The translations under genes and the position numbers were made by a program. The notes under the pieces were generated by a model. The model did no database searches. It saw nothing but the letters and a program-made list of their open reading frames with translations, and was not told the origin of the DNA. Shown piece by piece: positions 4,301 through 29,154 of a DNA stretch of 64,000 bases (positions within the stretch are counted from its first letter, which is position 1; each line of letters opens with the position of its first letter). Source of the DNA: Dissophora ornata (taxonomy: Eukaryota > Mortierellomycota > Mortierellomycetes > Mortierellales > Mortierellaceae); NCBI GenBank assembly GCA_025201705.1, contig MU616614.1, forward strand, positions 17,939 through 81,938, given 5' to 3'.

Positions 4301-4493
4301 CCGCCCCTCGGTCGTTACCCTTGCTACATCCGCTCTTTGTCTTTGCAAGCAGGCCTTTTGTTGGATATTACAATTATCCAACTTTAAATCCTCAGCCAAT
4401 CGCAGCAGTTCCGTCGTTCCCAGCACAGGTGCTGAACCTCCACCATTTTCAACTTGCAAAACACGAATACACACGCGCAGAAACAACAGACAG
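1383..4493. other. Gene-poor interval
   Basis: About 3.1 kb with no gene I can support. Open frames on both strands are short, lack family resemblance and show no splice-linked extension. It holds a CA/CT microsatellite and many homopolymer runs. The last ~500 bp, pyrimidine-rich and free of long frames, probably form the promoter and leader of the zinc-cluster regulator that starts at 4494. Confidence 0.5.
2933..3012. repeat. Compound (CA)n-(CT)n microsatellite
   Basis: An uninterrupted run of CA dinucleotides passes directly into CT dinucleotides and then into CTGT-type variants. It accounts for the low-complexity open frames that cross this position on both strands. Confidence 0.95.
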
Positions 4494-10338: not shown

Positions 10339-11619
10339 ATGGCTGCATATTCGACTACTATGAAGGCATCCTGGATCATGTGCCTGGGACTCTTGATCCT
10401 CGCCCTCTTGGCACCCCAGCAGTCTGAGGCCCACATGGCTATGCTCTACCCCACCCCTCGTGGCGGATATGGCACCAAGGCCTTTGACTGGAAAATCCAC
10501 ACCTTCATCGGATACGAAGGACTCAAGTTCCCATGCGGTGGATACCCCAAGGGACCCAACACCAGTACGATACAGTAGATTCACCATGCATATTGTGAAG
10601 CTCCTCTGCAATTTCTTTGTCTAACTGATACTACTACCCTTTCTTGCTTTGTGAATTTAGACCTCAAGGCTGGTCAGGTCGTCCCTGTCCGCTTCTGGAC
10701 CCCTAAGTTGACCAACACCAACTCGTTGCCCAAGAACAAGATCAGCGAGGCCCGTCACGGCGGTGGTTTGTGCGAGTTCTCGCTCTCGTACGATGGTGGA
10801 AAGACTTTCCACGTCATCGGATCCTACACCAAGACCTGCCCTGATGGTAAACCAAAAAAAAAAAAAAAAAAAAAAAAAAAATAGAACATGATCGCAATGC
10901 GATACTGTTGCATTGGCCTCGAATCTCAATGCAATTGATGCTGATGTGCTCTTGTGTCTTGCGTCTTTTCCGTTAGCTTACTACGAGTGGCCCGTCAGAA
11001 TTCCAGACAATATTCCTTCCTGCAACAACCCTGGTAATGCAACATTCCTGTCCTCCACATGCTTTTTTTAGAGTGTTAATTTCATTTGCTTGGAGCCCTT
11101 TACCAAGGGGTTGTCCACAAGTGACGCGAAAAACCCAAAAAAAAAAGACGAGGGCTCACAAATTTGTTGCGATTGGTTCATTCATTGTCCCCACAACGGG
11201 GGCACGTTTAACAAAACAAATGCGTACAATGTTCATGTACTCATCACCTGCCTGCCCTGCGCTCTTGATGATGTTTAGGCAAGTGCCTCTTCTCCTGGTC
11301 GTGGACTGCTAACCTCGTCCCCCAGTACTACCACAAGTAAGATTGCTCATCATCGTCGTCATCTTTTTTCGATATGCATCGTGGTTGGCGCGAAAAGAAG
11401 TGTGAAAGCTAACGGAAGCATTCCTTTCTCCTGTAAAACAGCTGTGCTGACGTCACCATCACCGGTGTCAAGAACGGCAAGTTGCCATCGAAGATGATGC
11501 AGGTCTATGACTTCAAGGGCGTGAAGCAGGGCAAGACCTTCCCTGGCGATGGTCACTCCCAGGACCGTGGCCCAGGCCCCATCAAGAGCGAGATCACCAC
11601 CAACACTCGCAAGGCATAA
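10339..11619 (+). CDS. Secreted AA11-like lytic polysaccharide monooxygenase
   Basis: Five exons: 10339-10564, 10661-10846, 10977-11033, 11279-11336 and 11442-11619, with phase kept at all four introns; 234 aa. Residues 1-31 form a signal peptide ending SEA. Cleavage would expose His32 as the N-terminal histidine of the copper histidine brace. The second brace histidine is His108 in ARHGGG, and the axial tyrosine is probably in QYYHNCADVTI (Tyr173/174). The HGGGxC, SLSYD and NCADVTI blocks match the AA11 type, whose known substrate is chitin. The enzyme would act outside the cell or in the wall. No carbohydrate-binding module is attached; the tail after residue ~186 is short and basic. This is the only complete copy in the window; truncated relatives lie at 14.6, 18.0 and 21.6 kb. 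Its nearest intact right-hand neighbour by ancestry appears to be the P5C reductase gene. Confidence 0.82.
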
Positions 11620-12042
11620 TTAATAAAAGCGAGCGCAAGAATTAGAGCAGTTACAGCGGACAATCAGTTGTGCAGAATGAACTGAAGGAGAATAGAAAAA
11701 AAGTGGGCGCCGGTCGTTCTTTTTCTCCGTCATCTTGTTTAGACGCGTGAATTGTCTAGTTGGTTGATTTCATGTGGGACAAGAATAAAAGCGAACAAAC
11801 AAACGCGTCTCCACTTGATTAATGCTGCATGTCCAAGACCTACCATAAACACAGCCACAAACAACTCAAACACGAGGTCATATCTACAACCTCGGCGCTC
11901 ACACCATCGCGACGAAAATGTATGAATGTTTACAAATGAACGTGAAGAAGTGTATGATATGTAACAAGTCGGATGAGAACAGTCGAGTTCTACTATGGAA
12001 GGGGTGCGCTGTGTGTAATTTGTATAGATGGGTGGGATGGAC

Positions 12043-12114
12043 CTACAGCTTTGTCGAAAGCTCTTTGCCGCTTAATTCCACAAGCGAGCTCTCACTCCTC
12101 ATTTCTGCGGCCTT
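12043..12114 (-). pseudogene. Duplicated 3' end of P5C reductase gene (unit 1)
   Basis: On the minus strand this reads as about 25 codons similar to the last codons of the intact reductase at 21989, including the stop (ending ELSTKL). Similarity stops abruptly upstream at the GTTGCGCAG boundary, so only the extreme C-terminus was carried along in the duplication. It is not a gene in its own right. Confidence 0.75.
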
Positions 12115-12263
12115 GGTTGCGCAGTGGAGTGTGGATGTGGGAGTGCCACACCACCTCCATCTAGTTAAAGAAATTAGCGCTCCTTGCTACAGCGGCACAT
12201 GGCATTGACATCGGTTCGAAGGCTAGGCCATCAAACTTTTATTTTTAAAAAATGGGTTGCAGT

Positions 12264-13832
12264 CTACACACTCGACTTTTCAAGCTCAAACGTTGGTCCA
12301 TCATCGCCATGATCCTCGCGGATTATCCTCAAGACCTCACCATCACTCCTCGGCTCGCTCACGATGAACCTCGAATAGCAAAGGTTGATGATGTACTCTC
12401 GAGCATCCACATGGAACTTGTATGAGAGCCATTTTCCGTCGTTCATGAACAACTTGACGGCAACAACGGCATATGGGACGAGGAATACAATGGTAACCAA
12501 CAACAATGGGATTGCCAACACCAGCTTGATGGAGATGACGGGTGTGATGACACCGGCTTGTTCGTATCCCTTGATCATGCCAATGGGTCGTGTTTGGGAG
12601 ACAGCCATGGTGAAGCACGTAGTGATGTAGCTGAGAAAGTCTCCATTGTTAGCCGTTGACGAAGAGTCATGGCCATTGGCCATATCTTGTATAGCGGCTT
12701 GTAGATCTCTGCCATAGTCCAATAGGACGCCAATGTTGCCCCGTAGATTACGTAACGTGGCATTTAATACCTCGTCCGCATCAACGCGTTTTATCTGCCT
12801 GATATCGGTGAACTTGGAGAACTCGAGTTGGTTGACAATTCCTTGGTTTCGGGATACGAGCGTGACATTTGTCGCAGCCAGCCAACTTTGGTGGTAGATT
12901 ACCCCGTAGTAGGTTGCTTTCGTTACGTAGTTGCTCGTATCATTGCTCGTAAGATGACCATATGCCTCAAGTATCGACTGCGCATTCCCAAAGTTGCTGG
13001 AGATGGATGAACCAAGTAACATATTAATCCCGACAGTGGTAACCGCAGTCAATGAGAACTTCTTTGTATCCCAATCGCTGAACGTACTGTTCAAGGAAGG
13101 AAAATCTTCCATGCTCCATCCACCAACTCCTACTACGCTGTAGTTGTAGACAGTTGTCATTCCTGGCGTCAAGTATACGAAGGTACCGTTCGCATACTCC
13201 AATCCCATTGAGAACGCGGTAACCATCACGCTGTCATATATCCCGGAATACTCGATGCTTCTTCCCAATCTTTCCAATGGAAGTTGGTATACCGCCAGTG
13301 GCACGTTTGCGGCCACAATGGATCTCGTGTTACTTCCTCCCCATGGTAAACCCGTCGTTAATGTACTGTTCATGGGTTGGAGTACAAAGTTGTTCATCGA
13401 CGAAAACTCGGAAGTCTCTGTCGGAGGAATGGTCGTGATGTTGGTGTACCCTTGCAGTAAATCTTGCCCAATTCCGGTAGAGAAGCATTGGTTCTTGGTG
13501 CACAAGTCCATGGGGATATTTTTGGTACCAACGACAAGACCCGAGAACGCATGTCCAAGTACACCAATGGTCATGAGCAGCAAGACGGCAAACATTGGGA
13601 ATCCACCAAGAAGGTTGAACAAATTAAGCACATCCAGATACGATCCACCACGAGATGTTGCCATGACGTATAATTTGCCCCGGTTCTTGGGGAAATACTT
13701 GAAGAGCCAAAAGGTTATCCCTTCTCTGGAACTTTGGACGATGATGAAGAAAAATCCACCCACGATGGCCAGTAGCATGCTCGTGACGATGCCCCTAAGG
13801 ACATCATCCTTGATAACGATTTGGATATCCAT
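12264..13832 (-). CDS. Three-TM glycoprotein of unknown function, array copy 1
   Basis: Intronless frame of 522 aa. Residues ~14-34 and ~77-100 are hydrophobic spans separated by a basic, cytosol-like loop. A region of more than 300 residues follows with many N-x-S/T sequons (NIT, NST, NGT, NYS, NDT, NVT, NAT) and few charges, best read as an extracellular or luminal domain. A third span lies at ~436-461 (IPLLLVTIVFLVPYAVVAV), followed by a ~60-residue acidic tail (REDHGDDGP). No signal peptide is apparent beyond the first span. I do not recognise the family. Two close paralogs in the same orientation lie at 15754 and 19354. The start ATG is shared by all three copies, and the sequence upstream of it diverges between copies, which supports it. 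Confidence 0.8.
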   Translation of the reverse strand: MDIQIVIKDDVLRGIVTSMLLAIVGGFFFIIVQSSREGITFWLFKYFPKNRGKLYVMATSRGGSYLDVLNLFNLLGGFPMFAVLLLMTIGVLGHAFSGLVVGTKNIPMDLCTKNQCFSTGIGQDLLQGYTNITTIPPTETSEFSSMNNFVLQPMNSTLTTGLPWGGSNTRSIVAANVPLAVYQLPLERLGRSIEYSGIYDSVMVTAFSMGLEYANGTFVYLTPGMTTVYNYSVVGVGGWSMEDFPSLNSTFSDWDTKKFSLTAVTTVGINMLLGSSISSNFGNAQSILEAYGHLTSNDTSNYVTKATYYGVIYHQSWLAATNVTLVSRNQGIVNQLEFSKFTDIRQIKRVDADEVLNATLRNLRGNIGVLLDYGRDLQAAIQDMANGHDSSSTANNGDFLSYITTCFTMAVSQTRPIGMIKGYEQAGVITPVISIKLVLAIPLLLVTIVFLVPYAVVAVKLFMNDGKWLSYKFHVDAREYIINLCYSRFIVSEPRSDGEVLRIIREDHGDDGPTFELEKSSV

Positions 13833-14599
13833 TGTAGTTCAGACGTCGTAGGGTTGTCAACAAAAATGTCGGAAGGCGTAACAAAACTGTTGGGCTCTCG
13901 CTCTCAGAGTCGGAAGTGAGGAAAATGTCGGCCTTGCCGCGGGCGTCAGCAATAGCAGTGTCGATACGAGCTTGGGGTTGTTGACAGAAGCACAAGCAAA
14001 AAGCACTGTGTGGGGAAAAGTTGCCGAGGAAAACTTCGAACGGATGCGTCGACAGTGAAAGCGAAAACGTCGCAGTGCGGTAGTATTGCTAAACGAAGCA
14101 ATGCAAAACACGACGTGTGAGTAAGAGCGGGAGCTTATGACAAACGATGCTTTGCTCCCATTGACGTGCGGGGCGCAGCCTATCAACGGTAGAGCCACTC
14201 ACCCGCAACTGGTCTCGCTAAAACGGAAGTGAGTGTCGGGAACTCTTGGAAGCCGGCCGAGTGAATTTTCAATGGACACTCTCTGAACTGAGCAGCAGAG
14301 AGAAAGCAATATGACTGAAGAAAGAGTTCTATTAGCCTTAGTCGTCTCTGTCTGTACATGAGCTGTCCATTATATCTAAAGTTGTCATACCTGAATAGCT
14401 GAGAGAAAGCAACAGGATTGTAGAAAAGAGTGTCAGGGTCAGAGCAGGCACAGGTGAGCAAGAAGAGGAAGAGGTGAGGACAGAAAACAAAGAATACTAG
14501 GGACAAGGAAATGTATTTATTGCCGACTGGATTGTGCAAGGAGATTACTGTTGTCGGATTTTTTCAGCTCACGGGGATTTTTTTGTTGCGGCTCTTGCC

Positions 14600-15177
14600 C
14601 GGGATTAACAACCCAGAAGGTTCCCTCCTGCAATAACCCTGGTAAGGCAACATCCTGAGTACTCCAACATCCTTGTCCTCCACGTGCTCTTTCCGAGGGG
14701 TCGCCAAAGAAAAAAAGAAAAAAAGAAAAAAAAGGACGAGGGCTCACAAATTTGTTGGCGATTGGTCCCCCCAACGGACACATTCAACAAAACAAATATG
14801 TGCCGCGTTCTTGCGCTCATCACCTGCCTGTCCTGCGCTCTTGGTCGTGGACCGCTAACCTCGTCCCCCAGCACTGCCACAAGTAAGATTGCTCGTCGCC
14901 GTCGTTATCTTATTTCGATATGCATCGTGGTCGGCGCGAAAAGACGTGTGAAAACTAACGGAAACGAATCAAGGTATTTCTTTCCCCTGTAAAAAACAGT
15001 TGTGCTGATGTGACCATCGTCGGCGTCAAGAGCGGCAAGTTGCCATCGGAGATGAGGCAGGTCTATGACTTCAAGGGCGTGAAGCAGGGCAAGACCTTCC
15101 CAGGCGATGGCCATTCCCAGGACCGCAGCTCAGGCCTCATCAAGGGCGAGATCACTGCCAACACTCGCAAGTCATAA
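14600..15177 (+). pseudogene. Truncated LPMO copy 2
   Basis: Exon 3 survives only as a fragment near 14608-14643, still followed by a donor-like GGTAAGG. The intron 3/exon 4 junction has a deletion that removes the acceptor and the first codons of exon 4; the rest of exon 4 is visible near 14845-14890 (GTGGACCGCTAACCTCGTCC). Exon 5 (about 15000-15177) is intact and ends in TAA. With no signal peptide, no N-terminal His and no HGGG segment, no LPMO can be made. The flanking sequence is clearly homologous to the complete gene at 10339. Confidence 0.85.
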
Positions 15178-15549
15178 TTAAAAACAAATGAGAGCGAGAA
15201 TGAGAGATAGAGCGGACAAGCAGTTGCGCAGAATGCACTGAAAGAGAATATAAAAAAAAGGGGGCGTCAGTCATTCTTTTTTTTTTTTCGTCATCTTGTT
15301 TAAACGCGTTGTTCTAGTTGGTTGATTGTTTCTCCTAGGAATGTGGGATAAGAGCCAAACAAACAAACGCGTCTCCACTTGGTTAATGCAAACAGTTCAA
15401 GCAACTCAAACACGAGACCACATCTACAACCTCGCTGGTTTCACCATCGCAACGAAAATGTATGAATGTTTACAAATGAACGAAGAAGTGTATGATATAT
15501 TACAATTCGGAAGAGAAAAGCCGTGTTCTACAATGGAAGGGTGGGGTGG

Positions 15550-15624
15550 ACCTAGAGATTTGTAGAAAGCTCCTTGCCGCTTAATTCCACAGCCGAGCTC
15601 TCACTCCTCATTTCTGCAGCCTTG
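15550..15624 (-). pseudogene. Duplicated 3' end of P5C reductase gene (unit 2)
   Basis: The minus strand encodes a short reductase-like C-terminus, as in unit 1, with a few substitutions. Similarity ends at the same GTTGCGCAG boundary, so all units share one ancestral breakpoint. Confidence 0.75.
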
Positions 15625-15753
15625 GTTGCGCAGGGGAGAGTGGATGTAGAGGCGTCATGCCAAGCGACACCCCTTACAACAGCGGCACATGGCATTGACA
15701 TCGGTTCCATGGCTAGGACATCAAACTTTTATTTATAAAACATGGGTCGCAGT

Positions 15754-17271
15754 CTACGCACGCAACTTTTCCAGCTCAAACATTGGCCCATCATCGCCAT
15801 GATCTTCGAGGATTATCCTCAGGACCTCACCATCACTCCTCGGCTCGCTCACGATGAAACTCGAATGGCAAAGGTTGATGATGTACTCTCGAGCATCCAC
15901 ATGGAACTTGTATGACAGCCATTTTCCGTCGTTCATGAACAACTTGACGGCAACAACGGCATATGGGACGAGGAATACAATGGTAACCAACAACAATGGG
16001 ATTGCCCACGCCAGATTGATAGAGATGACGGGTGTGGGGACACCAGCTTGCTCGTATCCCTTGATCATGCCAATGGGTTGCGTTTGAGAGACAGCCATGG
16101 TGAAGCACGTAGCGATGTAGCTGAGAAAGTCTCCGTTGTTGGCCGTTGACGTCATGTCAATACAATTCGCCCCACCTTGGGAAGAGGCTTGCAGCTCTCG
16201 ACCATAGTCCAACAGGACGCCAACGTTGTCCCGTAGATTATGTAAAGTGGCATTTAATACATCGTCCGCATCAACGCGTTTTATCAGCTTGAGGCTGGTG
16301 ACACCGGAGATCTCAAGTTGGGTGACATTTCCTTGGTTTTGAGATATGAGCGTGACATTTGCCGCAGCTAGCCAACTTTGGTAGTTGATTGTTCCATAGT
16401 AGGTTGCTTTCGTTGCATTGCTGCTCGATTTACCGCTCGGGACACCAAAGTCGTTGAGCAACATATTAATCCCGTCAAGGGTAACTTCAGTCAAGGAGAG
16501 TTTCTTCGCATACCAACAACTGGGCGTACTGTCGCAGGAAGAATAATATTCCATGATCCATCCATCAACTCCTACGCTGTCGTTGCGGGTAGTTGTCGCT
16601 CTGCGAGTCAAGCATTCGCCGGTACCGTCCGCATATCCAATCCTATTGCGAACATGGTAACCGCCAAGCGGTAGAAAGGCCCGGAATACTCGATGCTTTC
16701 TTCCCAATCTTTCCAATGGAAGTTGGTATACCGCCAGTGGCACGTTTGCAGCCACAATGAATCTCATGTTACTTCCTCCCCATGGCAACCCCGCCGTTAT
16801 TGTACTGGTCATAGGTTGGAGTACAAAATTGTTCATCAACGAAAACCCGGAAGTCTTTGTTGAAGGAATGGTCGTGATGTTGGTGTACCCTTGCAGTGAA
16901 TCTTGCCCAATTCCGGTAGAGAAGCATTGGTTATCGGTGCACAAGTCCGTGGGGATATTTTTGGTGGTAATTACAAGACCCGAGAACGCATGCCCAAGTA
17001 CGCCGATGGTCATGAGCAGAAAGACGGCAAACATTGGGAATCCGCCAAGCAGGTTGAACAAATTAAGCACATCCAGATACGATCCACCACGAGATGTTGC
17101 CATGACGTACAATTTGCCTCGATTCTTAGGGAAATGCTTGAAGAGCCAAAAGGTTATCCCTTCTCTGGCGCTTTGGACGATTATGAAGAAAAATCCACCC
17201 ACGATGGCCAGTAGCATGCTCGTGACGATGCCCCTAAGGACATCATCCTTGATAGGGATATGGATATCCAT
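15754..17271 (-). CDS. Three-TM glycoprotein of unknown function, array copy 2 (diverged)
   Basis: The single open frame of 505 aa is collinear with copies 1 and 3 at both ends, including all three membrane spans and the acidic tail. The central luminal region differs. After QLPLERLG about 23 codons are read in another frame relative to the paralogs, because of an extra T near 16693 and a missing base near 16634 that restores the frame. A deletion of about 17 codons follows further on (around LLNDFGVPSGKSS). Several sequons of the other copies are lost in this stretch. The frame remains open throughout, so the copy may still make protein, but the altered luminal segment could have changed or lost function. 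The family is unknown. Confidence 0.7.
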   Translation of the reverse strand: MDIHIPIKDDVLRGIVTSMLLAIVGGFFFIIVQSAREGITFWLFKHFPKNRGKLYVMATSRGGSYLDVLNLFNLLGGFPMFAVFLLMTIGVLGHAFSGLVITTKNIPTDLCTDNQCFSTGIGQDSLQGYTNITTIPSTKTSGFSLMNNFVLQPMTSTITAGLPWGGSNMRFIVAANVPLAVYQLPLERLGRKHRVFRAFLPLGGYHVRNRIGYADGTGECLTRRATTTRNDSVGVDGWIMEYYSSCDSTPSCWYAKKLSLTEVTLDGINMLLNDFGVPSGKSSSNATKATYYGTINYQSWLAAANVTLISQNQGNVTQLEISGVTSLKLIKRVDADDVLNATLHNLRDNVGVLLDYGRELQASSQGGANCIDMTSTANNGDFLSYIATCFTMAVSQTQPIGMIKGYEQAGVPTPVISINLAWAIPLLLVTIVFLVPYAVVAVKLFMNDGKWLSYKFHVDAREYIINLCHSSFIVSEPRSDGEVLRIILEDHGDDGPMFELEKLRA

Positions 17272-18039
17272 TGTAATTCAGAAGGCGTAGGGTTGTCAAC
17301 AAAAATGTCGGAAGGCGTAACAAAACTGTTGGGCTCTCGCTCTCAGAGTCGGAAGTGAGGAAAATGTCGGCCTTGCCGCGGGCGTCAGCAATAGCAGTGT
17401 CGATACGAGCTTGGGGTTGTTGACAGAAGCACAAGCAAAAAGCACTGTGTGGGGAAAAGTTGTCGATGAAAACTTCGAACGGATGGATGCACAGTGATAG
17501 CGAAAACGTCGCGGTACGGTAATTTTGTTAAACGAAGCAATGCAAAAACACGACGTGTGAGTAAGAGCAGGAGCTTAGGACAAACGAGGCTTTGCTACCA
17601 TTGACGTGCGGGGCGCAGCCTATCAACGGTAGAGCCACTCACCTGCAACTGGTCTCGCTAAAACGGAAGCGAGTATCGGGAACTCTTGGAAGCCGATCGA
17701 GTGAATCTTCGGTGGATACACTCTGAACTGAGCAGCATAGAGAAAGCAACATGATTGAAGAAAGAGTTCTATTAGCCTTAGTTGTCTATATCTGTACATG
17801 ATCTGTCCATTCCATCTAAAGTTATAATACCTGGACAGCAAAGAGAAAGTAACAGGATTGAGGAAAAGGGTGTCAGGGTCAGAGCAGGCACAGGTGAGCA
17901 AGAAGAGGAAGAGGAAGAGGTGAGGACTGGGAGCAAGGAATACTGGAGTCAAGGAAATTTATTTATTGCAGACTGGACTGTACAAGAGGATATTACTGCT
18001 GACATGCACTCTGCCTGTTGTCGTTTGGGTTCAGCTTTT

Positions 18040-18840
18040 TTTTTTTTTGCGGCCCTTGCCGGGATTTTACCCAAAAGGTTCCTTCCTGCAATAATTCTGG
18101 AAAGGAAACACTCTTGTATGGCTCGGTTCCAGCGAACAGGACGCGAAATGCTAAAAAAAAAAAAAGCGATTGGTTCATTCGTCGTCACCACAGCCGCTGG
18201 GCACATTCAACAAATTAAATTCGTGCTTCGTTCATGTGCATGAACATACACAGCATTTCCCGATATACTAATTGGTCAACTTCAAGGCGGTCCATCCTGC
18301 GGCTGGATTTCGAGCGCGCGTTTGACATCGAGTACGGATTGGAAAGTTTCGAAGATGCGCTTCCTTGTCTTCTTGCCTACGAGGTAGCCCGTGAACGTGG
18401 GGATCTTCAAATCCGGCCACAAAATTTAACCCAACTATATCGGGAAATGCTGTACTCATCACCTGTCCTGCGCTCTTGATGATGGTTAGGCAGGCGCCTC
18501 TTCTCTTGGTCGTGGATCGCTAAATTCGTCTCCCAGTACTACCACAAGTAAGATTGCTCGTCATCGTCGTCATCTTATTACGATATGCATTGTAGTCGGC
18601 GCGAAATGAAGTGTGAAAGCTAAAGGAAACGTATCAACTTATTTCTTTCCCCTGTAAAACAGCTGTGCTGATGTGACCATCGTCGGTGCCGAGAACGGCA
18701 ATTTGCCATCGAAGATGAGGCAAGTCTATAGCTTCAAGGGTGTTAAGCAGGGTAAGACCTTCCCTGGCGATGGCCGCTCTCAGAGCCGCGGCCCTGGCCC
18801 CATCAAGGGCGAGATCACCGCCAACACTCGCACGCCATAA
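18040..18840 (+). pseudogene. Truncated LPMO copy 3, interrupted by an inverted-repeat element
   Basis: A short exon 3 relic lies near 18070-18105. Exons 4 and 5 are intact and splice-competent: the acceptor GGTTAG precedes a segment encoding LFSWSWIAKFVSQYYHN, the donor GTAAGA is at about 18548, and the last exon ends in TAA at 18840 after TITANT-like codons. Exons 1-2 are missing, so there is no secretion signal and no copper brace. A 204-bp element (18250-18453) sits in the relic of intron 3. Confidence 0.82.
18250..18453. mobile_element. MITE-like element with 18-bp terminal inverted repeats
   Basis: ACAGCATTTCCCGATATA at 18250-18267 is exactly inverted at 18436-18453. The 204-bp segment is absent at the homologous place in unit 1, where GTTCATGTACTCATCACC runs through uninterrupted. 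Flanks suggest at most a 2-bp duplication (AC or TA). A weak open frame crosses it on both strands but no transposase motif was recognised, so it is best seen as a non-autonomous DNA element. Confidence 0.7.
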
Positions 18841-19131
18841 TTAAAAAAGACGAGTGCAAGAATGAGAGATAGAGCGGACAAGCAGTTGCGCAGAATAAAC
18901 TGAAGGAGAATAGAAAACCTTTTTTTTCTGTCACCTTGTTTAGACGCGTTGTTCTAGTTGGTTGATTATTGTTTCTCCTTTGTGGAATAAAAAGCCAAAC
19001 AAACAAACGCGTCTCAAACACGCCGCAACCTCGCCGCTCTCACTATCGCAACGAAAAAACGTATAAATGAACGTGAAGAAGTGTATTACAATTCGGAAGA
19101 GAAAAGCCGTGTTCTACAATGGAAGGGTGGG

Positions 19132-19209
19132 GTTGACCTACAGATTTGTAGAAAGCTCCTCGCCGCTTAATTCCAGAGCCGAGCTCTCACTCCTCATTTC
19201 TGCAGCCTT
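19132..19209 (-). pseudogene. Duplicated 3' end of P5C reductase gene (unit 3)
   Basis: Same ~25-codon relic as in units 1 and 2, with the same breakpoint next to GTTGCGCAG. Confidence 0.75.
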
Positions 19210-19353
19210 GGTTGCGCAGGGGAGAGTTGATGAAGAGGCGCCACATCACCCGGCCGAAAGGAATTGATACTCCTTACAACAGCGGCACATGGCATTGACA
19301 TCGGTTCGACAGCTAGGCCACCAAACTTTTATTTTTAAAAAATGGGTCGTAGT

Positions 19354-20922
19354 CTACGCACGCAACTTTTCCAGCTCAAACATTGGTCCATCATCGCCAT
19401 GATCTTCGAGGATTATCCTCAGGACCTCACCATCACTCCTCGGCTCGCTCACGATGAAACTCGAATGGCAAAGGTTGATGATGTACTCTCGAGCATCTAC
19501 ATGGGACTTGTATGACAGCCATTTTCCGTCGTTCATGTACAACTTGATGGCGACAATGGTATATGGGACGAGGAATACAATGGTAACCAACAACAATGGG
19601 ATTGCCCACACCAGATTGATAGAGATGACGGGTGTGATGACATCAGCTTGTTCGTATCCCTTGATCATGCCAATGGGTCGCGTTTGGGAGACAGCCATGG
19701 TGAAGCACGTAGCGATGTAGCTGAGAAAGTCTCCGTTGTTGGCCGTTGACGTAATGACAATTGGATTCGCCCCACCTTGGGAAGAGGCTTGCAGATCTTG
19801 ACCATAGTCCAACAGGACGCCAACGTTGTCCCGTAGGTTACGTAAAGTGGCATTGAATACCTTGTCCGCATCAACGCGTTTTATCAACGTGAGGTTGGCA
19901 ATAGTGGAGATCTCCAGTTGGTTGACATTTCCTTGGTTTCGGGATACGAGCGTGACATTTGTCGCAGCCAGCCAACTTTGGTGGTAGATTACCCCGTAGT
20001 AGGTTGCTTTCGTTACGTAGCTGCTCGTATCATTGCTCGCGAGATGACCATATGCCTCAAGTAACGACTGCGCATTCCCAAAGTTGCTGGAGATGGATGA
20101 ACCAAGTAACATATTAATCTCGACAGTGGTAACTGCAGTCAATGAGAACTCCTTCGTATCCCAACCACTGAACGTACTGTTCAAGGAAGGAAAATCTTCC
20201 ATGCTCCATCCATCAACTCCTACTACGCTGTAGTTGTAGGCAGTTGTCACTCCGGGCGTCAAGTATACGAAGGTACCGTTCGCATACTCCAATCCCATTG
20301 AGGACGCGGTAACCATCACGCTGTCATATATCCCGGAATACTGGATGCTTCTTCCCAATCTTTCCAATGGAAGTTGGTATACCGCCAGTGGCACGTTTGC
20401 GGCCACAATGGATCTCGTGTTACTTCCTCCCCATGGTAAACCCGTCGTTAATGTACTGTTCATGGGTTGGAGTACAAAGTTGTTCATCGACGAAAACTCG
20501 AAAGTCTTTGTTGGAGGAATGGTCGTGATGTTGGTGTATCCCTGCAGTAAATCTTGCCCAATTCCGGTAGAGAAGCATTGGTTCTTGGTGCACAAGTCCA
20601 TGGGGATATTTTTGGTACCAACGACAAGACCCGAGAACGCATGTCCAAGTACGCCGATGGTCATGAGCAGAAAGACGGCAAACATTGGGAATCCACCAAG
20701 AAGGTTGAACAAATTAAGCACATCCAGATACGATCCACCACGAGATGTTGCCATGACGTATAATTTGCCCCGGTTCTTGGGGAAATGCTTGAAGAGCCAA
20801 AAGGTTATCCCTTCTCTGGCACTTTGGACGATTATGAAGAAAAATCCACCCACGATGGCCAGTAGCATGCTCGTGACGATGCCCCTAAGGACATCATCCT
20901 TGATAGGGATATGGATATCCAT
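19354..20922 (-). CDS. Three-TM glycoprotein of unknown function, array copy 3
   Basis: Intronless, 522 aa, collinear over its full length with copy 1: two N-terminal spans, a large sequon-rich luminal region, one C-terminal span and an acidic tail. Its N-terminal ~95 residues and its last ~150 residues carry the variants seen in copy 2 (MDIHIPIKDD, SSQGGAN, FELEKLRA). Its middle carries those of copy 1 (VVGTKNIPMDLC, SIVAANVP, YGVIYHQSW). This mosaic suggests gene conversion or unequal crossover between copies. The sequence directly upstream of the ATG is not shared with copies 1 and 2, so its promoter may differ. No function is assigned. Confidence 0.8.
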   Translation of the reverse strand: MDIHIPIKDDVLRGIVTSMLLAIVGGFFFIIVQSAREGITFWLFKHFPKNRGKLYVMATSRGGSYLDVLNLFNLLGGFPMFAVFLLMTIGVLGHAFSGLVVGTKNIPMDLCTKNQCFSTGIGQDLLQGYTNITTIPPTKTFEFSSMNNFVLQPMNSTLTTGLPWGGSNTRSIVAANVPLAVYQLPLERLGRSIQYSGIYDSVMVTASSMGLEYANGTFVYLTPGVTTAYNYSVVGVDGWSMEDFPSLNSTFSGWDTKEFSLTAVTTVEINMLLGSSISSNFGNAQSLLEAYGHLASNDTSSYVTKATYYGVIYHQSWLAATNVTLVSRNQGNVNQLEISTIANLTLIKRVDADKVFNATLRNLRDNVGVLLDYGQDLQASSQGGANPIVITSTANNGDFLSYIATCFTMAVSQTRPIGMIKGYEQADVITPVISINLVWAIPLLLVTIVFLVPYTIVAIKLYMNDGKWLSYKSHVDAREYIINLCHSSFIVSEPRSDGEVLRIILEDHGDDGPMFELEKLRA

Positions 20923-21600
20923 TGTAATTCAGAAGGCGTAGGGTTGCCAACAAAGACGTCTGAAAGACTAGGTTGGGGTATCACTGCAGGAGTATCGTCG
21001 TCCGCCTTGTTGAAGCCGAAGGGTGTTTTGTTGACAGGAGAAAGAAATAAGCACTGTGTGAGAAAAAGTTGTCGATGAAAACTTCGAACGGATGGATGCA
21101 CAGTGATAGCGAAAACGTCGCGGTACGGTAATTTTGTTAAACGAAGCAATGCAAAAACACGACGTGTGAGTAAGAGCAGGAGCTTAGGACAAACGAGGCT
21201 TTGCTACCATTGACGTACGGGGCGCAGCCTATCAACGGTAGAGCCACTCACCTGCAACTGGTCTCGCTAAAACGGAAGCGAGTATCGGGAACTCTTGGAA
21301 GCCGATCGAGTGAATCTTCGGTGGATACACTCTGAACTGAGCAGCAGAGAGAAAGCAACATGTTTGAAGAAAGAGTTCTATTAGCCTTAGTCGTCTATGT
21401 CTGTACATGATCTGTCCATTCTATTAAAGTTGTCATACCTGAACAGCAGAGAGAAAGTAACAGGATTGAAGAAAAGAGTGTCAGGGCCAGAGCAGGCACA
21501 GGTGAGCAAAAAGAGGAAGAGGTGAGGACAGGGAACAAGGGATACTTAAGTCAAGGAAATGTATTTATTGCAGACTGGATTGTATAAGAGGAGACTACTG

Positions 21601-21985
21601 TTGACATGTACTCTGCTTCAGGCCTTTTTTTTATTGCGGCTCTTACAATATTGCAATAACCCTGACAAGGCTAGGCTCGAATCCACATGGATTTTGTCAA
21701 TTGCCAATGCCAGCTTCTACCAGGACGGTTCTTAAGGGTTTACCGACGAAAAAAAAGAGGAGTGCAAGAATGAGAGACAGAGCGGACGCGCAGAATTTTG
21801 TTCTTGGACAAACGCTATTCCGCTTGGTTAATGCACTGCCCAAAAGTGAGGCTACATCTTCAACCTCGCTGATCTCACCATCGTAACGAAAATGCATGGA
21901 TGTTTATAAATGATAAATTACAGTTCGGAAGAGGACAGCGAGTTCTATTATGGAAGGGGCGCACTGTGTATAGATGGGTGGGATG
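21601..21985. repeat. Partial fourth array unit
   Basis: Remnants occur in array order: the unit-edge sequence and an exon 3 scrap (TTGCAATAACCCTGACAAGG) near 21645-21670, LPMO 3'-flank sequence (AGTGCAAGAATGAGAGACAG) near 21758, and the ACGAAAATG...TGTTTATAAATG stretch near 21885. LPMO exons 4-5 are gone. It runs straight into the intact P5CR gene, which marks the right edge of the array. Confidence 0.7.
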
Positions 21986-21988
21986 GGC

Positions 21989-22966
21989 CTACAGCTTTGT
22001 TGTAAGCTCCTTGCCGCCTAATTCCACAGCCAAGCTCTTACTCCTCATATCTGCAGCCTTGACACTCTCGTAAACGAGCTCTCGGAGACCGCCGCTCTCG
22101 AGCGTCTTGATCGCGGCATCTGTGGTTCCATGTGGCGACGTGACCTTTACTCTCAATGTCTTGAGGTCATCGCTGCTCGATTGTGCCATCTTGGCTGCGC
22201 CCAAACAGGTCTGGATAGTCAACGCCTTGGCTGTCTCCCGATCCATGCCCAACCTGACAGCAGCGTCCTCCATGGCCTCCATCATCAAGAAGAAATAGGC
22301 GGGCCCCGATCCAGAGACTCCAGTGACAGTATCGATCAAGCCTTCACGGTCGACCCACGAAACCTGCTTCGAGACCGCGGCCATTAACGATTCCGCGACA
22401 TGACGTTGATCCTGTGTCGCATCTGCGGTAGCATATAATCCTGCTGCGCCTTCGTTCACAAGCGAGGGCGTATTGGGCATGACTCTAATGACGGGCGGCA
22501 TGTCTTTGGGCTGGAAGCTCGTCCCCTCGGTCATGAAGTTCGCGATCGCACTGGTCTCGATTCCTGCGGCGATTGATATGATAAGAGGCTGGCGCGTACG
22601 CAGGACCGAGCTCAAATCGTTGACAACGCTCTTGAGGACTTGAGGCTTGACGGCGAGAATGATCACCTCGGCTGGTGCAAAGTTTATGGAAGTAGCGGTG
22701 GTGGGGCTGATATGAACAGATCCTTCAGTGATCATAGCAGCTGTTTTTGAAGGCGAGGTAGAGCCGTTGACAGCGAGCTGGTTCGCCTGAGGGCCGGAGA
22801 GGACCTGAAGACCAGGGTATTTTTTGTATAGAAATTCATAGCGGGCTTGCAGTGGCTCTGAAATGACACATTGGGAGAGAGGGTAGCCGCAGGCTAGGAG
22901 ACCGCCTAGGATAGCCTCAGCCATGTTGCCGCCTCCAATGAATGCGATTCTTGATTGCAACGTCAT
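21989..22966 (-). CDS. PRO3: Pyrroline-5-carboxylate reductase
   Basis: Intronless, 325 aa when started at the ATG just before the nucleotide fold (MTLQSRIAF). A longer in-frame start exists at 23080, but the extra 38 residues resemble leader sequence rather than the family. Residues 9-16 (FIGGGNMA) form the NAD(P)H-binding loop and MPNTP lies mid-protein. The C-terminal half carries the family signature around GVSGSGPAYFF...EAMEDAAVRLG and TSPHGTTDAAI. It catalyses the last step of proline synthesis, pyrroline-5-carboxylate to proline. The length is somewhat above bacterial ProC (~270 aa) and typical for fungi. Its last ~25 codons are duplicated three times to the left, tail-to-tail with LPMO remnants, which shows it was the ancestral right-hand neighbour of the LPMO gene. 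Confidence 0.93.
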   Translation of the reverse strand: MTLQSRIAFIGGGNMAEAILGGLLACGYPLSQCVISEPLQARYEFLYKKYPGLQVLSGPQANQLAVNGSTSPSKTAAMITEGSVHISPTTATSINFAPAEVIILAVKPQVLKSVVNDLSSVLRTRQPLIISIAAGIETSAIANFMTEGTSFQPKDMPPVIRVMPNTPSLVNEGAAGLYATADATQDQRHVAESLMAAVSKQVSWVDREGLIDTVTGVSGSGPAYFFLMMEAMEDAAVRLGMDRETAKALTIQTCLGAAKMAQSSSDDLKTLRVKVTSPHGTTDAAIKTLESGGLRELVYESVKAADMRSKSLAVELGGKELTTKL

Positions 22967-23979: not shown

Positions 23980-24258
23980 TTAGACCTCGCGCTCGAGATC
24001 ACCCTTGACTTCGTCGCCGTGTCCCTTAGCCTCCATGGAGGTGTTTCCGGTGAGGGATCGGACAGTCTGCTAGACCTGTTCCTGGACCTTGTGGCCCAGT
24101 CTTTCGGCGTGGGTCTTGGCATCGGCATCAGCCTAGGCCTTCTGCTGAGCACCGGAGGCAGCGAGGTCACTGTAGCTGAGAGTCCCGCCGACGGTCTGCT
24201 TGGCACCTCCGAGGCAGGAGTTGGCGGTGTTGGAGATCTTGTCGGTGATGTCCGACAT
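23980..24258 (-). pseudogene. CsbD-like / cruciform-DNA-binding-type small stress protein, broken
   Basis: The minus strand from the ATG at 24258 reads MSDITDKISNTANSCLGGAK, continues through DLAASGAQQKA and SLTGNTSMEAKG, and ends in TAA at 23980 (92 codons). It strongly resembles small fungal CsbD-like proteins (often annotated as mismatch- or cruciform-DNA recognition proteins). Two in-frame TAG codons interrupt it at codons 42 and 63, each where the family has glutamine, so each is a single CAG-to-TAG change. The frame is otherwise kept. It is best read as a recent pseudogene; stop-codon reassignment is excluded because neighbouring genes use TAG as a normal stop. Confidence 0.8.
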
Positions 24259-25056: not shown

Positions 25057-28000
25057 TCAAGTTTGGATCGCGTTCATCACGTTGGTCGGCGTAATGAGAT
25101 CGAACACTACCGTCTCAGGAATCGCAGTAGCACCGGGCCGCGAGCTTAGGTATTTCGCTGTATCCCTGGCCTGCCGCGCAGCAATAGCTTCACCGATCTT
25201 CACGACGTCTTGGTAGTACTTGAACACGACGTCCCGAAGCTCTGTTGTGACGAAACCGTAGCTGTCCTGCAAGAAGTCGATCGAAGGCTCCAGCACGCCG
25301 CGGCCCAGTACCGTTTCTGGATAAGGGCCTTGGCCAGTCAGCGACGCATTAATCTGAATGTCCTTAAATGTCATTTTGCCGATTTGATCATACGTATGAG
25401 TTTGCGAGGGAAGACAGGCCAGTACGTCGTCCGACGTCCAGTGTGAGGACAGCTTTCCTTGCGGCAATGGATACATCAGGAACGAGGCGTTGGGCACGAA
25501 CGCCCCGTGATTATAAGAGCCATCGTTCACCACTGTATGCTGCACTGTGAACTGCCATATGAACATTGTAAGCACTTCGTGTAGCTTCTCGACGGTCTTG
25601 ACCTTATCCGGAAAGCGATGCGCGACCCTCTCGTCCTCACCCTCATCCGGAAGGCGATGCGCGACACTCTGGTCGTTGACATGGTTGAATGCCGGAGTCA
25701 GCTTGCTGAAGAAGCGCTGGAGCTGGATATCCTCCGCAACCGCCTGATCGCTTTGGCGATATTGAATTGCGATGAAATTTTTGACGAAGTCTGAAATCGC
25801 ATCATACCAAAGACGGGCGTCGTGAATATACGCATAGGAGAACGGAGTTTGCTCGACGCCGCGACGTTCGGCGTTGATTGGAATTGCCAGATCCAGGAAG
25901 CGAAATTTATCATTGTCGTTGTACATCTTGTCCTGCAGCTGATAGTTGCCGATTCGACCACAGGAGAAAATCAGGTCGTAGATGAAGCCGACGTTGTACA
26001 CCCCTGGAGCACCATTGAGCACGCGGGTGTCGGGGAAGGATTGGGCATGAGGGCGGTAGTCTTGGTTGTAGATATTCTTTTGGAACTCCAAGGCTTTCAC
26101 CAGGTGCGGCCGCAGCAACTTGAACACGGGGTGTTGCTGAAACTCCTCGCGAGATTGGGGCGATGTGGTTGGATTGAAGACCTCTTGCGAGAAAAGAGCG
26201 ATCGAAACCATCGCGCAGATCTGATGCGTATGCAGCTGATGGAAGCCTACATCGTGCAGCGTCTGGCCTGCGCAATTGGTCTGCATCTTGGCCAGCAGCC
26301 AGGCATTTTCGGCATTGATCATGTTCGGCGTGAACAACTCGCCGTCTTCCTCAAGCTGTATGCCGACTGGCATCAGCTCATTATTGTCGTTAACGGTGAA
26401 AAGGACGAGAGGCTTGGCAAGATAATGGCCCACCGGAGTTATTGTGCAGGCATTGAGATAGTGCCGGTAGTCGGCCACGTATTTCACCGTTTCTAGCCCT
26501 CCAGGAATATGCGCTGGGTCAATGCGTGCCTCCCTCAGCAGCCGGTTGAAATTCAAATTCGACACATTCTGTAGTAAATTCGGCATAAAGCCCGCCAATT
26601 GTTGTCGGGCAAACTCATCGTCGTCCTTCAGCCAGAATTTCGGTGCCGGGATCGTCTGAAAGTTGTTGCCATAGTAAATGGCCTCCAACTTCCTCACCGA
26701 GCTATCTGTATCCGCGACCTGGACTGGCGGCAGCTTGTCACGCCGGGTGACATTTTCATTCCAGGTCGCATTCAGCATGGCCAACACCTGCTTATCCCGC
26801 GTGGAGGACTTCATGGATTGCGGCACCGTGTCGTACTTCTTCACGAACGCGGGAACTTCCCCTTCGAAGACGTAGTCCTCCTCGCTATAGATGCTTGGGC
26901 CTCCGCTCGGTGGCAGTGTTGCAGCTTTGCGGTCATCCGGGTTGTACTGATACTCATAGTGCATTATGTTGGCTGTTGCCGGGTCGCCCATTATATCCGG
27001 TACCGTGAATGTCCCCCAGGTCTTCGTCATCTGTTTAATTTTCTCGTCCTCTCCAGCATGCCCCAGGATGTTCAGCACCGCGTTATAGGCCGAATCCAAC
27101 GCCCCAACTATCCAGCCGTGATGGACTGAGCAGCACTCCCCGGCAAAGTTCAGGCGGCCGTCAAACTCGGGCGTCAACAGAGAGGGGTAGAGGTACTTGA
27201 ACTGTCCTGGCTTGAACAAGGCGAACGCGCCTCCGCCTGCATGCTGGTCCCAGAACCAGGTCTTGGCCGTGCTGGCGTAGTCCCGGGGATTCGGTAAAAC
27301 GTCGTCCATTTTAATGTGGGGATATAGATACTGAATGCTCTTGAGACATTCTTGGATGCGCTCCTCTTCGCCGAGCGCCCCCAACTTGCGCGCATCTTCA
27401 CCCCAACAGTACACCTGAAGCACACCCCCCGTCGCGTTGTAGCCATACGACGGAAAGACGATCTGCCTGATGGGGCGGTCCGTTGTTGCCACACCGCCCT
27501 TTATGCCCCTGTCGCTCCAGAACTGCCGCGTGAAGGTTATGAAGGCCTTGAATGAGGACATGTAGTTGCTACTGCGTAAAGCCTGTGCCTTCGCGAAGGA
27601 AACGTCTTCTTCCAGCAGGTTCGAATAAGCGCTGTTGGGCAATGTGGTGATGACATACGGGTAGGTTCGCACTTCGGTGCTACCATTGATGGCCAGTGTT
27701 ACCTGCATGCCACTGAGGCGTTGCATCTGGTCCCGAACAGGACGCATGGCGGTCACTTTGTGTGAAGTGTACACGCGCTGTCTGCGCACAATTTCTTCAT
27801 AGCTAGTCGCGATACCCAAACGCTCGACGGGGTGCAAATCCCATTCATCCTGCAGGAGGTTGGGCGGGTCATACTTGTAGCGACCATCCGATTGCGGCAA
27901 CATGCCCACATCACGCTGAGCGTCTTGACCTTCGCTTATTGTGACAGAGCCGTTCATATCGAGTACCAGCCTACATGCATCCGGGAGGTTCTGCATCCCC

Positions 28001-29154
28001 TTGTTCACCGTCAGCATATGGATATTGGGGTCTTTCGGCTCATACGGGTTTTTGCTACCGCCCCAATCATAGACGGCGATTACCATCTCCACGAAAGATA
28101 CGGAGTACATCCCAGTTCCCGCGTTGGTAGTCTCGAGGAAATTGACAACGGACCATGGCAGCGGATCGCTCTTTATCCCCATTTCCGGATCGTAGTACTT
28201 GCCCAGGTCTCCGAGGCGGAACTGAGTGGTCAGGTAATCCCACATTGAATATTGATCGAACTGCATTAGCAGCTCGAAGCCCTCAGCGAACAACCGGTTG
28301 ATGGCCTCCAGGAACGGCGCGTTCACCATATCCAGCACCTTGTGGATCGGTAGGTAATCCTGGCCATCTTCCTGCTTTGCAGTCAACCAGACCATAGGCA
28401 CGTTGCCGCCCTTCTTCACGTCGAAGTTGAGGCTCCCCAGCTTCGCCTCTTCGGCAGTCGTGGGCTCGCTCATGTTATTATAACGCAGCGGTTGCATTGG
28501 TGAATCGTAATAGAACTTTCGCCAGTACACTTTCTGATCGTCCATGCCTTTGCGGTGCAGCACCGCATTCACCGCCAGAGCCATCTGCTGCACCGGCAGC
28601 ATGTCCTCCGAATACTTTGGCAGGCGCATCCCACCTACTTCTCCATACAAGCAGGCATTGTTCTCGACTAGCGCATTGTAGTTGCCGGGCGAGTACCAAG
28701 TGTAAATTCGTCCGCCCACGCGTTCCGATGACTCCAACACCTCGAACTCGACATTGAGCGACTGAAGGATCAATCCTGCAAATAGGCCCGCCATACCGGC
28801 ACCCACGATCCCGACCTGGGCCTTTTCCGTGTGGGCAGGCAACCCGGCAGTGTATTTCCCCTCGATGGCTTCACGATCCCTGCGGTATATGTCACTCTCT
28901 ATAGGAATTTCATCGTCCTTGAGCTGTTTGTCACTCTCCTTGCGAAATTCAAGCTCCTCCTGTTTTTTTTTATGAGTTGCCTCGTGATGAGAACGATCCA
29001 AGCGGGCAGTGTCACGCTGTTGCTTGAGCTTGGCACGGTGTTCGGCTCCAAAATTCTCCAATACCCAGCGTGCGTACGCTTTGCGGAAAGAACCCCGATT
29101 CTGATAGTCGCGCTGGAGGGACCCGGTCGTGGGATTGAGATCAAGATAGCTCAT
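25057..29154 (-). CDS. L-amino-acid-oxidase-like flavoenzyme fused to lipoxygenase domain
   Basis: A single uninterrupted frame of 1365 aa with no intron, unlike most neighbours. Residues 1-110 are charged and possibly helical. Residues ~112-740 form a flavin amine-oxidase domain: the dinucleotide loop VGIVGAGMAG (GxGxxG at 118-123), GGR at 147-149, GEVGGMRLP, and a C-terminal FAD segment AGECCSVHHGWIVGAL, as in L-amino-acid oxidases. Residues ~800-1365 match lipoxygenases: WLKDDDEFARQQLAG near 841, FHQLHTH (His972, His977), HPVFKLLRPH, LWYDAISDF, and QHTVVN (His1206, Asn1210). The canonical second iron histidine position holds Met982, and the C-terminal residue is Thr rather than Ile. A coupled reaction is conceivable, for example H2O2 from amino-acid oxidation beside fatty-acid dioxygenation, but is not shown. 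Base composition looks more GC-rich than the flanks. Together with the absence of introns this suggests horizontal acquisition, which is inference. Confidence 0.85.
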   Translation of the reverse strand: MSYLDLNPTTGSLQRDYQNRGSFRKAYARWVLENFGAEHRAKLKQQRDTARLDRSHHEATHKKKQEELEFRKESDKQLKDDEIPIESDIYRRDREAIEGKYTAGLPAHTEKAQVGIVGAGMAGLFAGLILQSLNVEFEVLESSERVGGRIYTWYSPGNYNALVENNACLYGEVGGMRLPKYSEDMLPVQQMALAVNAVLHRKGMDDQKVYWRKFYYDSPMQPLRYNNMSEPTTAEEAKLGSLNFDVKKGGNVPMVWLTAKQEDGQDYLPIHKVLDMVNAPFLEAINRLFAEGFELLMQFDQYSMWDYLTTQFRLGDLGKYYDPEMGIKSDPLPWSVVNFLETTNAGTGMYSVSFVEMVIAVYDWGGSKNPYEPKDPNIHMLTVNKGMQNLPDACRLVLDMNGSVTISEGQDAQRDVGMLPQSDGRYKYDPPNLLQDEWDLHPVERLGIATSYEEIVRRQRVYTSHKVTAMRPVRDQMQRLSGMQVTLAINGSTEVRTYPYVITTLPNSAYSNLLEEDVSFAKAQALRSSNYMSSFKAFITFTRQFWSDRGIKGGVATTDRPIRQIVFPSYGYNATGGVLQVYCWGEDARKLGALGEEERIQECLKSIQYLYPHIKMDDVLPNPRDYASTAKTWFWDQHAGGGAFALFKPGQFKYLYPSLLTPEFDGRLNFAGECCSVHHGWIVGALDSAYNAVLNILGHAGEDEKIKQMTKTWGTFTVPDIMGDPATANIMHYEYQYNPDDRKAATLPPSGGPSIYSEEDYVFEGEVPAFVKKYDTVPQSMKSSTRDKQVLAMLNATWNENVTRRDKLPPVQVADTDSSVRKLEAIYYGNNFQTIPAPKFWLKDDDEFARQQLAGFMPNLLQNVSNLNFNRLLREARIDPAHIPGGLETVKYVADYRHYLNACTITPVGHYLAKPLVLFTVNDNNELMPVGIQLEEDGELFTPNMINAENAWLLAKMQTNCAGQTLHDVGFHQLHTHQICAMVSIALFSQEVFNPTTSPQSREEFQQHPVFKLLRPHLVKALEFQKNIYNQDYRPHAQSFPDTRVLNGAPGVYNVGFIYDLIFSCGRIGNYQLQDKMYNDNDKFRFLDLAIPINAERRGVEQTPFSYAYIHDARLWYDAISDFVKNFIAIQYRQSDQAVAEDIQLQRFFSKLTPAFNHVNDQSVAHRLPDEGEDERVAHRFPDKVKTVEKLHEVLTMFIWQFTVQHTVVNDGSYNHGAFVPNASFLMYPLPQGKLSSHWTSDDVLACLPSQTHTYDQIGKMTFKDIQINASLTGQGPYPETVLGRGVLEPSIDFLQDSYGFVTTELRDVVFKYYQDVVKIGEAIAARQARDTAKYLSSRPGATAIPETVVFDLITPTNVMNAIQT
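25607..25684. repeat. 39-bp in-frame tandem duplication inside the lipoxygenase domain
   Basis: Two near-identical copies of TCCGGAA(A/G)GCGATGCGCGAC follow each other at a 39-bp period, giving the peptide repeat VAHRLPDEGEDER / VAHRFPDKV at residues ~1164-1185. The period is a multiple of three, so the frame is kept. Confidence 0.85.

Follow-up and report, generated by a model that had tools for sequence, protein, structure and literature searches.

Natural lipoxygenase (LOX) fusions are, to our knowledge, few, and those known pair the LOX with a haem partner acting on its product. In the coral enzyme the partner is an allene oxide synthase, a catalase-related haem protein working on the LOX product in this way, and the Acaryochloris fusion-protein LOX of Gao et al. 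(2010) reportedly has a catalase-like partner. Here we describe a gene from the fungus Dissophora ornata (Mortierellaceae, Mortierellomycota) whose product joins an L-amino-acid-oxidase-type flavoenzyme domain to a LOX-type domain; it lies in a stretch of 64,000 nucleotides, called the window below (assembly GCA_025201705.1, contig MU616614.1, positions 17,939 to 81,938 of the forward strand). The protein resembles the coral allene oxide synthase-LOX (3dy5, 3fg1), one of the best PDB matches of its LOX half, in that a LOX domain and another oxidative enzyme share one chain, but its partner is of the flavin amine-oxidase type and the LOX similarity is remote. With the Acaryochloris protein, set beside it by title alone and with no sequence comparison, it shares the arrangement of a bacterial LOX domain within a fusion protein. 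LOX fusions are thus known, and among the matches listed none was found described with an amino-acid oxidase partner or a terminal Thr; the open-access titles and abstract openings listed likewise hold no description of an amino-acid oxidase-LOX combination.

A sequence-only reading of the window had described an intron-free frame of 1365 codons in which a flavin amine oxidase is followed by a LOX. Both parts of that description were borne out, since the frame is unbroken and both halves have Pfam and PDB matches; the gene lies on the minus strand (29154→25057), which the reading had not stated. The Pfam families above their cut-offs were Amino_oxidase (PF01593, 3.6e-40, 139 bits versus a cut-off of 19.8), NAD_binding_8 (8.9e-08) and Lipoxygenase (PF00305, 7.7e-18, 64.8 bits versus 23.6), and a phmmer search of the PDB with the fusion returned L-amino acid oxidase 4 (9enh, 6.4e-45) as well as the coral allene oxide synthase-LOX (1.5e-19). 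Three of the motifs named by the reading were also found, namely GxGxxG at residues 118-123 in the form GAGMAG, AGECCSVHHGWIVGAL where the oxidase ends, and QHTVVN in the LOX half (Table 1).

The oxidase half combines the PF01593 match and the GxGxxG motif with substrate-site Arg, Lys, Tyr and Trp residues at the positions found in solved L-amino-acid oxidases (LAAOs), which is the signature expected of a LAAO. The likeness to the LAAO family (9enh, L-lysine alpha-oxidase 7c3i/7d4c, 1f8r) lies in the flavin amine-oxidase sequence and in these four matched positions, with the local PDB alignments skipping the middle of the domain, whereas the fusion adds an N-terminal extension and the C-terminal LOX. 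Arg177, which matches the GAMR-motif Arg in the alignment, presumably binds the substrate carboxylate, and we take Lys536, Tyr582 and Trp681 to have the roles of their equivalents in the solved enzymes.

In the C-terminal half, the PF00305 match is accompanied by three His residues at the predicted metal-ligand positions and by the second-sphere Asn; phmmer placed the His cluster five residues off, and the register used is that of the multiple alignment. The PLAT domain typical of eukaryotic LOXs had no Pfam match in the fusion at E 0.001, and a single-domain bacterial LOX is already known from the cited part of PMC6612559. No other LOX was found in the source genome by a six-frame search, which an intron-rich gene could escape because the frames were searched without regard to introns.

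It is the last residue that departs from the described enzymes. According to the cited passages of PMC13059375 and PMC5422543, the LOX metal is held by three His residues and by the carboxylate at the C-terminus, where Ile is usual and the fungal Mn enzymes have Val, and a published screen, as excerpted from PMC10653942, used a terminal Ile or Val as its criterion. The fusion family has Thr there instead: 58 of the 60 rows longer than 1150 amino acids end in Thr (IQT 47, ILT 9, VQT 1, IET 1), the remaining two being labelled partial by their source. So do all 14 shorter members of the family whose rows extend to the end of the LOX. Because Thr stands at the place of the Ile or Val carboxylate ligand, the C-terminal half appears to be a LOX-like domain of variant type. 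For this placement the last 15 residues were aligned without gaps against three distant LOXs and scored by mean BLOSUM62. The register with Thr on Ile reached 15.1, 5.5 and 14.2 (shuffles -9 to -14), versus -2.8, 4.5 and 1.3 for the register that leaves a 14-residue tail on the fusion; against the placement stand the near tie in one of the three (5.5 versus 4.5) and the choice of the tail alignment by MAFFT. Two relatives in which the LOX is a separate gene, in the genomes G327 and G635 described below, both end in CIQI, and the G327 end scored a mean of 14.5 against the fused ends (shuffles -12). The simplest reading would be that a terminal Ile was turned into Thr in the fused family. Fungal LOXs with a C-terminal Val, including Mn-lipoxygenase, share with the fusion the WL-L/F-AK motif (WLLAK in the fusion) and a non-Ile end in the cited parts of PMC5422543 and PMC13059375; the fusion differs in its Thr, the Val type has signal peptides (PMC5422543, same part), and the similarity of the Mn-LOX type to the LOX half is weak (5fno, 7.9e-11). 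A metagenomic protein of 1509 amino acids (P0070) with C2, FAD-binding (PF01565, PF09129; FAD, flavin adenine dinucleotide) and lipoxygenase domains ends in SINL and represents another flavoprotein-LOX fusion with a non-Ile end.

Table 1 Features of the oxidase-LOX fusion gene, in window coordinates; rows refer to the family alignment.
Feature	Position	Strand	Basis
Whole fusion gene	25057..29154	minus	1365 codons and stop, single unbroken frame
N-terminal stretch, residues 54-101	28852..28995	minus	alignment; 54-68 and 76-101 gapped in >70% of 59 rows
L-amino-acid-oxidase-type flavoenzyme domain, residues about 110-715	27010..28827	minus	Pfam, PDB
FAD dinucleotide-binding motif GAGMAG, residues 118-123	28786..28803	minus	each Gly in 58/59 rows
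Arg177, aligned with GAMR-motif Arg of solved LAAOs	28624..28626	minus	59/59 rows
Lys536, aligned with conserved Lys of solved LAAOs	27547..27549	minus	59/59 rows
Tyr582, aligned with Tyr of solved LAAOs	27409..27411	minus	59/59 rows
Trp681 of VHHGW; aligned solved oxidases have VHHAW or VRHAW	27112..27114	minus	59/59 rows
Linker, residues about 716-825 (borders by eye)	26680..27009	minus	conserved across fusions (alignment)
LOX catalytic domain, residues about 826-1365 (border by eye)	25060..26679	minus	Pfam, PDB, alignment
His972-x4-His977, first two predicted metal ligands	26224..26241	minus	His972 59/59, His977 58/59 rows
36-bp in-frame insertion, residues 1163-1174	25633..25668	minus	gapped in >70% of rows; partly repeats adjoining VAHRFPD segment
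His1206 and Asn1210 (HTVVN), third predicted ligand and second-sphere Asn	25525..25539	minus	59/59, 58/59 rows
C-terminal Thr1365 at place of canonical Ile/Val	25060..25062	minus	end-of-protein comparison

A homologue search over 5.8 billion proteins, with 7999 candidates scored, yielded at least 70 homologues, 59 of which, the fusion's own entry included, exceed 1200 amino acids and align over 91-100% of its length. As 58 other homologues of this size cover the protein almost end to end, the fusion is not a local accident. Without the known fungal sequences, 56 rows remain, across which 343 alignment columns are invariant; the D. ornata copy keeps 327 of these despite its fast evolution, and for this reason it is very probably functional. 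Named bacterial sources were Burkholderia, Paraburkholderia, Chitinimonas, Massilia, Pseudoduganella, Microcystis, Sorangium and a Crocinitomicaceae bacterium; the fungal ones were Entomortierella chlamydospora, at 67% identity the nearest homologue, and Modicella reniformis, whose protein is labelled partial and 63% identical. Both fungi belong to the Mortierellaceae in the Mortierellomycota. Many further fusion homologues are unnamed metagenome proteins, and a partial row of 1158 amino acids comes from a Verrucomicrobia bacterium. Public databases record both Pfam domains and name the members FAD-dependent oxidoreductase, (mono)amine oxidase or hypothetical protein. Since the gene is found in numerous bacteria and in fungi of two further genera, the sequences indicate that the fusion was not made in D. 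ornata.

The distribution is patchy. Species genomes, when scanned, contributed further fusions (three loci in Undibacterium, one each in Paraburkholderia and Microcystis), together with seven Bacteroidetes loci matching the oxidase half alone. Among 398 sampled Burkholderiaceae genomes, 77 matched at E 0.001, of which six hold the full-length fusion (69-70% identity) and the rest gave mostly weak matches to the oxidase half. Of 231 matching plasmid records, a single one, from Burkholderia stagnalis, covers at least 80% of the query, and phages searched with the LOX half gave no match. A search for stand-alone LOX halves returned 18 proteins, comprising three distant LOXs (25-27% identity) and otherwise fusions or shorter pieces on contigs mostly below 5 kb. 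One of the shorter proteins (P0071) starts inside the oxidase and is for that reason regarded as a cut fusion, while P0066 and P0067 (889 and 858 amino acids) hold the oxidase in full but just the first part of the LOX and are either truncated genes or contig edges. In one of the Burkholderiaceae genomes (G322, locus L049) the last 42 fusion residues (4230-4355) stand alone within 12 kb, with 79% identity to the window fusion and 83% to the family member P0005, and the surrounding open reading frames (ORFs) resemble, by eye, the neighbours of intact carriers; this is probably a loss of the fusion.

An origin in bacteria had been proposed by the sequence-only reading and finds support in the phylogeny. 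In the full-length protein tree, the three sequences from fungi group as a single clade (ultrafast bootstrap 100, SH-like approximate likelihood ratio test, SH-aLRT, 99; SH-aLRT 99 in another full-length tree) with which the Burkholderia and Paraburkholderia rows group at 97/98, inside a larger bacterial group including Chitinimonas at 100/100; the fungal sequences are thus nested in a supported bacterial clade (97/98, 100/99). Trees of the LOX half, calculated with or without the window fusion, also place the fungi inside the Burkholderiales group. Because the three fungal proteins form one clade inside this group, the fusion is probably of bacterial making and would have passed a single time, from a Burkholderiales-type donor, to a fungal ancestor. 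Two results weigh against this conclusion: the oxidase-half tree without the window fusion has the Entomortierella protein as sister to the four Burkholderiales rows of the group rather than inside them, and one oxidase-half tree that included the window fusion put the outgroup root on the long branch of this protein, which was flagged as long branches meeting. The window fusion has an end branch of 0.55 in the full-length tree, versus 0.08 and 0.18 for the other two fungi, and distant outgroups root the trees poorly, so that the rooting is unstable. Burkholderiales are named among the main foreign-gene donors to Mortierellomycota in the cited part of PMC11291939, whose main text makes no mention of lipoxygenase.

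Stand-alone oxidases of marine Bacteroidetes (Kordia, Polaribacter, Dokdonia) are about 48-57% identical to the oxidase half and have a similar N-terminal start by eye, but stop just after the oxidase; in the genome of K. algicida the LOX half had no match at E 0.001. An ancestral stand-alone oxidase that later gained the LOX was considered and found unsupported, as the oxidase-half trees place the stand-alone proteins among the fusions and close to the Crocinitomicaceae fusion, which joins them in a further tree. Since they fall among the fusions, loss of the LOX half appears at least as likely as gain, with unsure rooting. In all six Kordia loci (L009-L014) the stand-alone oxidase is followed by a gene with a similar-looking start, which in K. 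algicida (L014) is a patatin-like phospholipase by Pfam.

With regard to function, we lean, at slightly better than even confidence, towards a bifunctional oxidative enzyme of bacterial origin that is under selection in the fungus and whose two steps would belong to one pathway using a 2-oxo acid. Homology and active-site residues suggest that the N-terminal flavoenzyme would convert an L-amino acid into a 2-oxo acid, ammonia and hydrogen peroxide. The C-terminal LOX, with a predicted metal site of three His residues and a terminal carboxylate provided by Thr in place of Ile or Val, would then add O2 to another substrate, for which a polyunsaturated fatty acid would be the simplest choice. Arachidonic acid would be an obvious candidate in Mortierella-type fungi; M. 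alpina is a source of this acid according to a cited abstract. By a cited passage, B. thailandensis has an ordinary LOX that oxygenates arachidonic acid. The coupling of both steps within a single pathway consuming the amino-acid-derived 2-oxo acid is the weaker part of the proposal.

This coupling is suggested by the relatives in which oxidase and LOX are separate genes. In G327, a Burkholderiaceae genome of a genus shared with five fusion carriers, a divergent oxidase (617 codons), a LOX (675 codons) and a thiamine diphosphate (ThDP) enzyme follow each other on one strand. Downstream of the oxidase stop, at 48 bases, comes an ATG preceded by GAGGA, with a further ATG in frame 15 bases before it. 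The third gene begins 16 bases past the LOX stop; the nearest solved relatives of its product are pyruvate, branched-chain 2-oxo-acid, phenylpyruvate and indolepyruvate decarboxylases. In G635 the LOX (44% identical to that of G327) is likewise followed by a ThDP enzyme, 57% identical to its G327 counterpart over 642 positions, and no oxidase is present within the 10 kb seen. Because the separate oxidase and LOX share an apparent operon with a 2-oxo-acid-decarboxylase-like gene, the arrangement suggests that they serve one amino-acid-derived pathway. G327 was one of 65 genomes of its genus, and G635 one of 399 of an order and six of its family; among loci of this kind, neighbours were examined at these two. 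Weaker LOX matches came up in the same genome sets, and a set of 369 genomes from the class gave more, with 30% identity at best (G1074).

Around the fused copies the theme recurs in other forms. The Undibacterium crateris gene lies near a multicopper oxidase, a tyrosinase, LodA and a Trp_halogenase-type flavoprotein (Pfam), which we take to be LodB-like. The B. stagnalis plasmid copy (L015) lies near a tyrosinase, two octopine/nopaline dehydrogenases and a phytanoyl-CoA dioxygenase; this region also holds DUF692 and ATP-grasp genes and a pyridoxal-dependent decarboxylase and looks like a biosynthetic cluster. Amino-acid or 2-oxo-acid genes thus occur repeatedly near fusions, but no neighbour is common to all. 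Several observations count against a shared 2-oxo-acid pathway: the oxidase-LOX-ThDP order comes from a single genome, as does LOX-ThDP; the 26 features annotated near the B. stagnalis copy include no ThDP decarboxylase, nor do the eight Pfam-scanned neighbours of other fused copies; U. rugosum has ORFs similar to those of U. crateris (by ORF starts), but U. flavidum is without the LodA group; and the Bacteroidetes proteins indicate that the oxidase can persist without this LOX.

Among the alternatives, a self-priming oxylipin synthase without a common pathway is possible, although we regard it as unlikely. Here, hydrogen peroxide from the oxidase would convert the Fe2+ LOX to Fe3+, so that free amino acids would gate fatty-acid oxygenation. 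In its favour, the resting ferrous LOX is inactive and requires peroxide oxidation to the ferric form (PMC13059375, cited part), and the natural coral fusion (3dy5) also ties a LOX to another oxidative enzyme; a 2-oxo-acid-decarboxylase-like gene after the LOX, as in both separate-gene relatives, would however be needless for peroxide priming. The separate-gene neighbourhoods point to a 2-oxo-acid pathway at least as much as to peroxide coupling. Peroxide from the neighbouring domain could also activate the LOX within the favoured bifunctional enzyme, an addition that sits less well with PMC13059375, which in its main text names fatty acid hydroperoxide and does not mention hydrogen peroxide.

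We consider it rather doubtful that the two halves are independent tethered oxidases whose hydrogen peroxide, ammonia and lipid peroxides would harm competitors or grazers. The LodA, tyrosinase and multicopper oxidase genes adjoining the U. crateris copy would fit such a role, as would the lone oxidase of Kordia, including K. algicida with its adjoining phospholipase gene, but the N-terminus of the fusion has no obvious signal peptide by eye and no neighbourhood is common across lineages. Just as doubtful is a third, Thr-terminated LOX class, fused to an amino-acid oxidase and with one member acquired by a fungal lineage, that would oxygenate the oxidase-made 2-oxo acid or a conjugate rather than free fatty acids. 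The activated CH2 of an aryl-2-oxo acid is chemically comparable to the bis-allylic CH2 of fatty acids, and the product of the separate genes would go on to the 2-oxo-acid-decarboxylase-like enzyme encoded by the adjoining gene. That the C-terminal half is no longer a LOX and serves as a structural or regulatory domain with a changed terminal ligand seems improbable. The departure of the last residue from the Ile/Val rule would agree with this, but each of the three His residues and the Asn is lacking from at most one of the 59 rows, the end point is exact in 58 of the 60 rows longer than 1150 amino acids, and a dead domain would not be expected to hold its last residue in place.

An assembly artefact or a bacterial contaminant contig would fit the mostly bacterial origin of the named relatives but can practically be dismissed, because two other fungi carry the gene in the same clade, the source genome (31.4 Mb, 968 contigs) contains ten chitin synthase matches, and the fusion is flanked in the window by genes for pyrroline-5-carboxylate reductase (P5CR), a GRAM-type glucosyltransferase with apparently two exons, cyclophilin, Rrn7 and the eisosome protein PIL1. 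These neighbours are eukaryotic and partly fungal in kind.

The base composition of the locus, which the sequence-only reading had taken as a foreign sign, was rejected as a mark of origin: the fusion gene has a GC content of 0.540 and the adjoining P5CR gene 0.538. At third codon positions (GC3) the fusion has 0.67, its window neighbours 0.56 to 0.62 (P5CR 0.62) and B. stagnalis 0.92. The absence of introns, read in the same sense, holds for the unbroken fusion frame but is weak evidence by itself, because P5CR also appears as an uninterrupted frame. Of the pseudogene and Helitron flanks that had been proposed, one pseudogene is real, a short frame broken by stops at window positions 23992-24258 on the minus strand, which we presume to be CsbD-like, whereas no Helitron family turned up when 20 of the 50 window ORFs of at least 150 amino acids were scanned. 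Farther out, tandem repeats of about 3.5 kb at 11236-22061, with pieces about 81-93% identical, contain three long frames on the minus strand (12264-13838, 15754-17277 and 19354-20928), of which the first and second were scanned and had no Pfam match.

An amino-acid oxidase partner would tie nitrogen metabolism to oxylipin-type chemistry on one chain. The family-wide terminal Thr breaks the Ile/Val rule that was used for LOX screening in the cited part of PMC10653942, and Ile/Val-based screens would therefore miss these proteins. For the fungus, the fusion is the sole LOX found in the genome by six-frame search, which would make D. ornata a single-gene test of what such an enzyme does.

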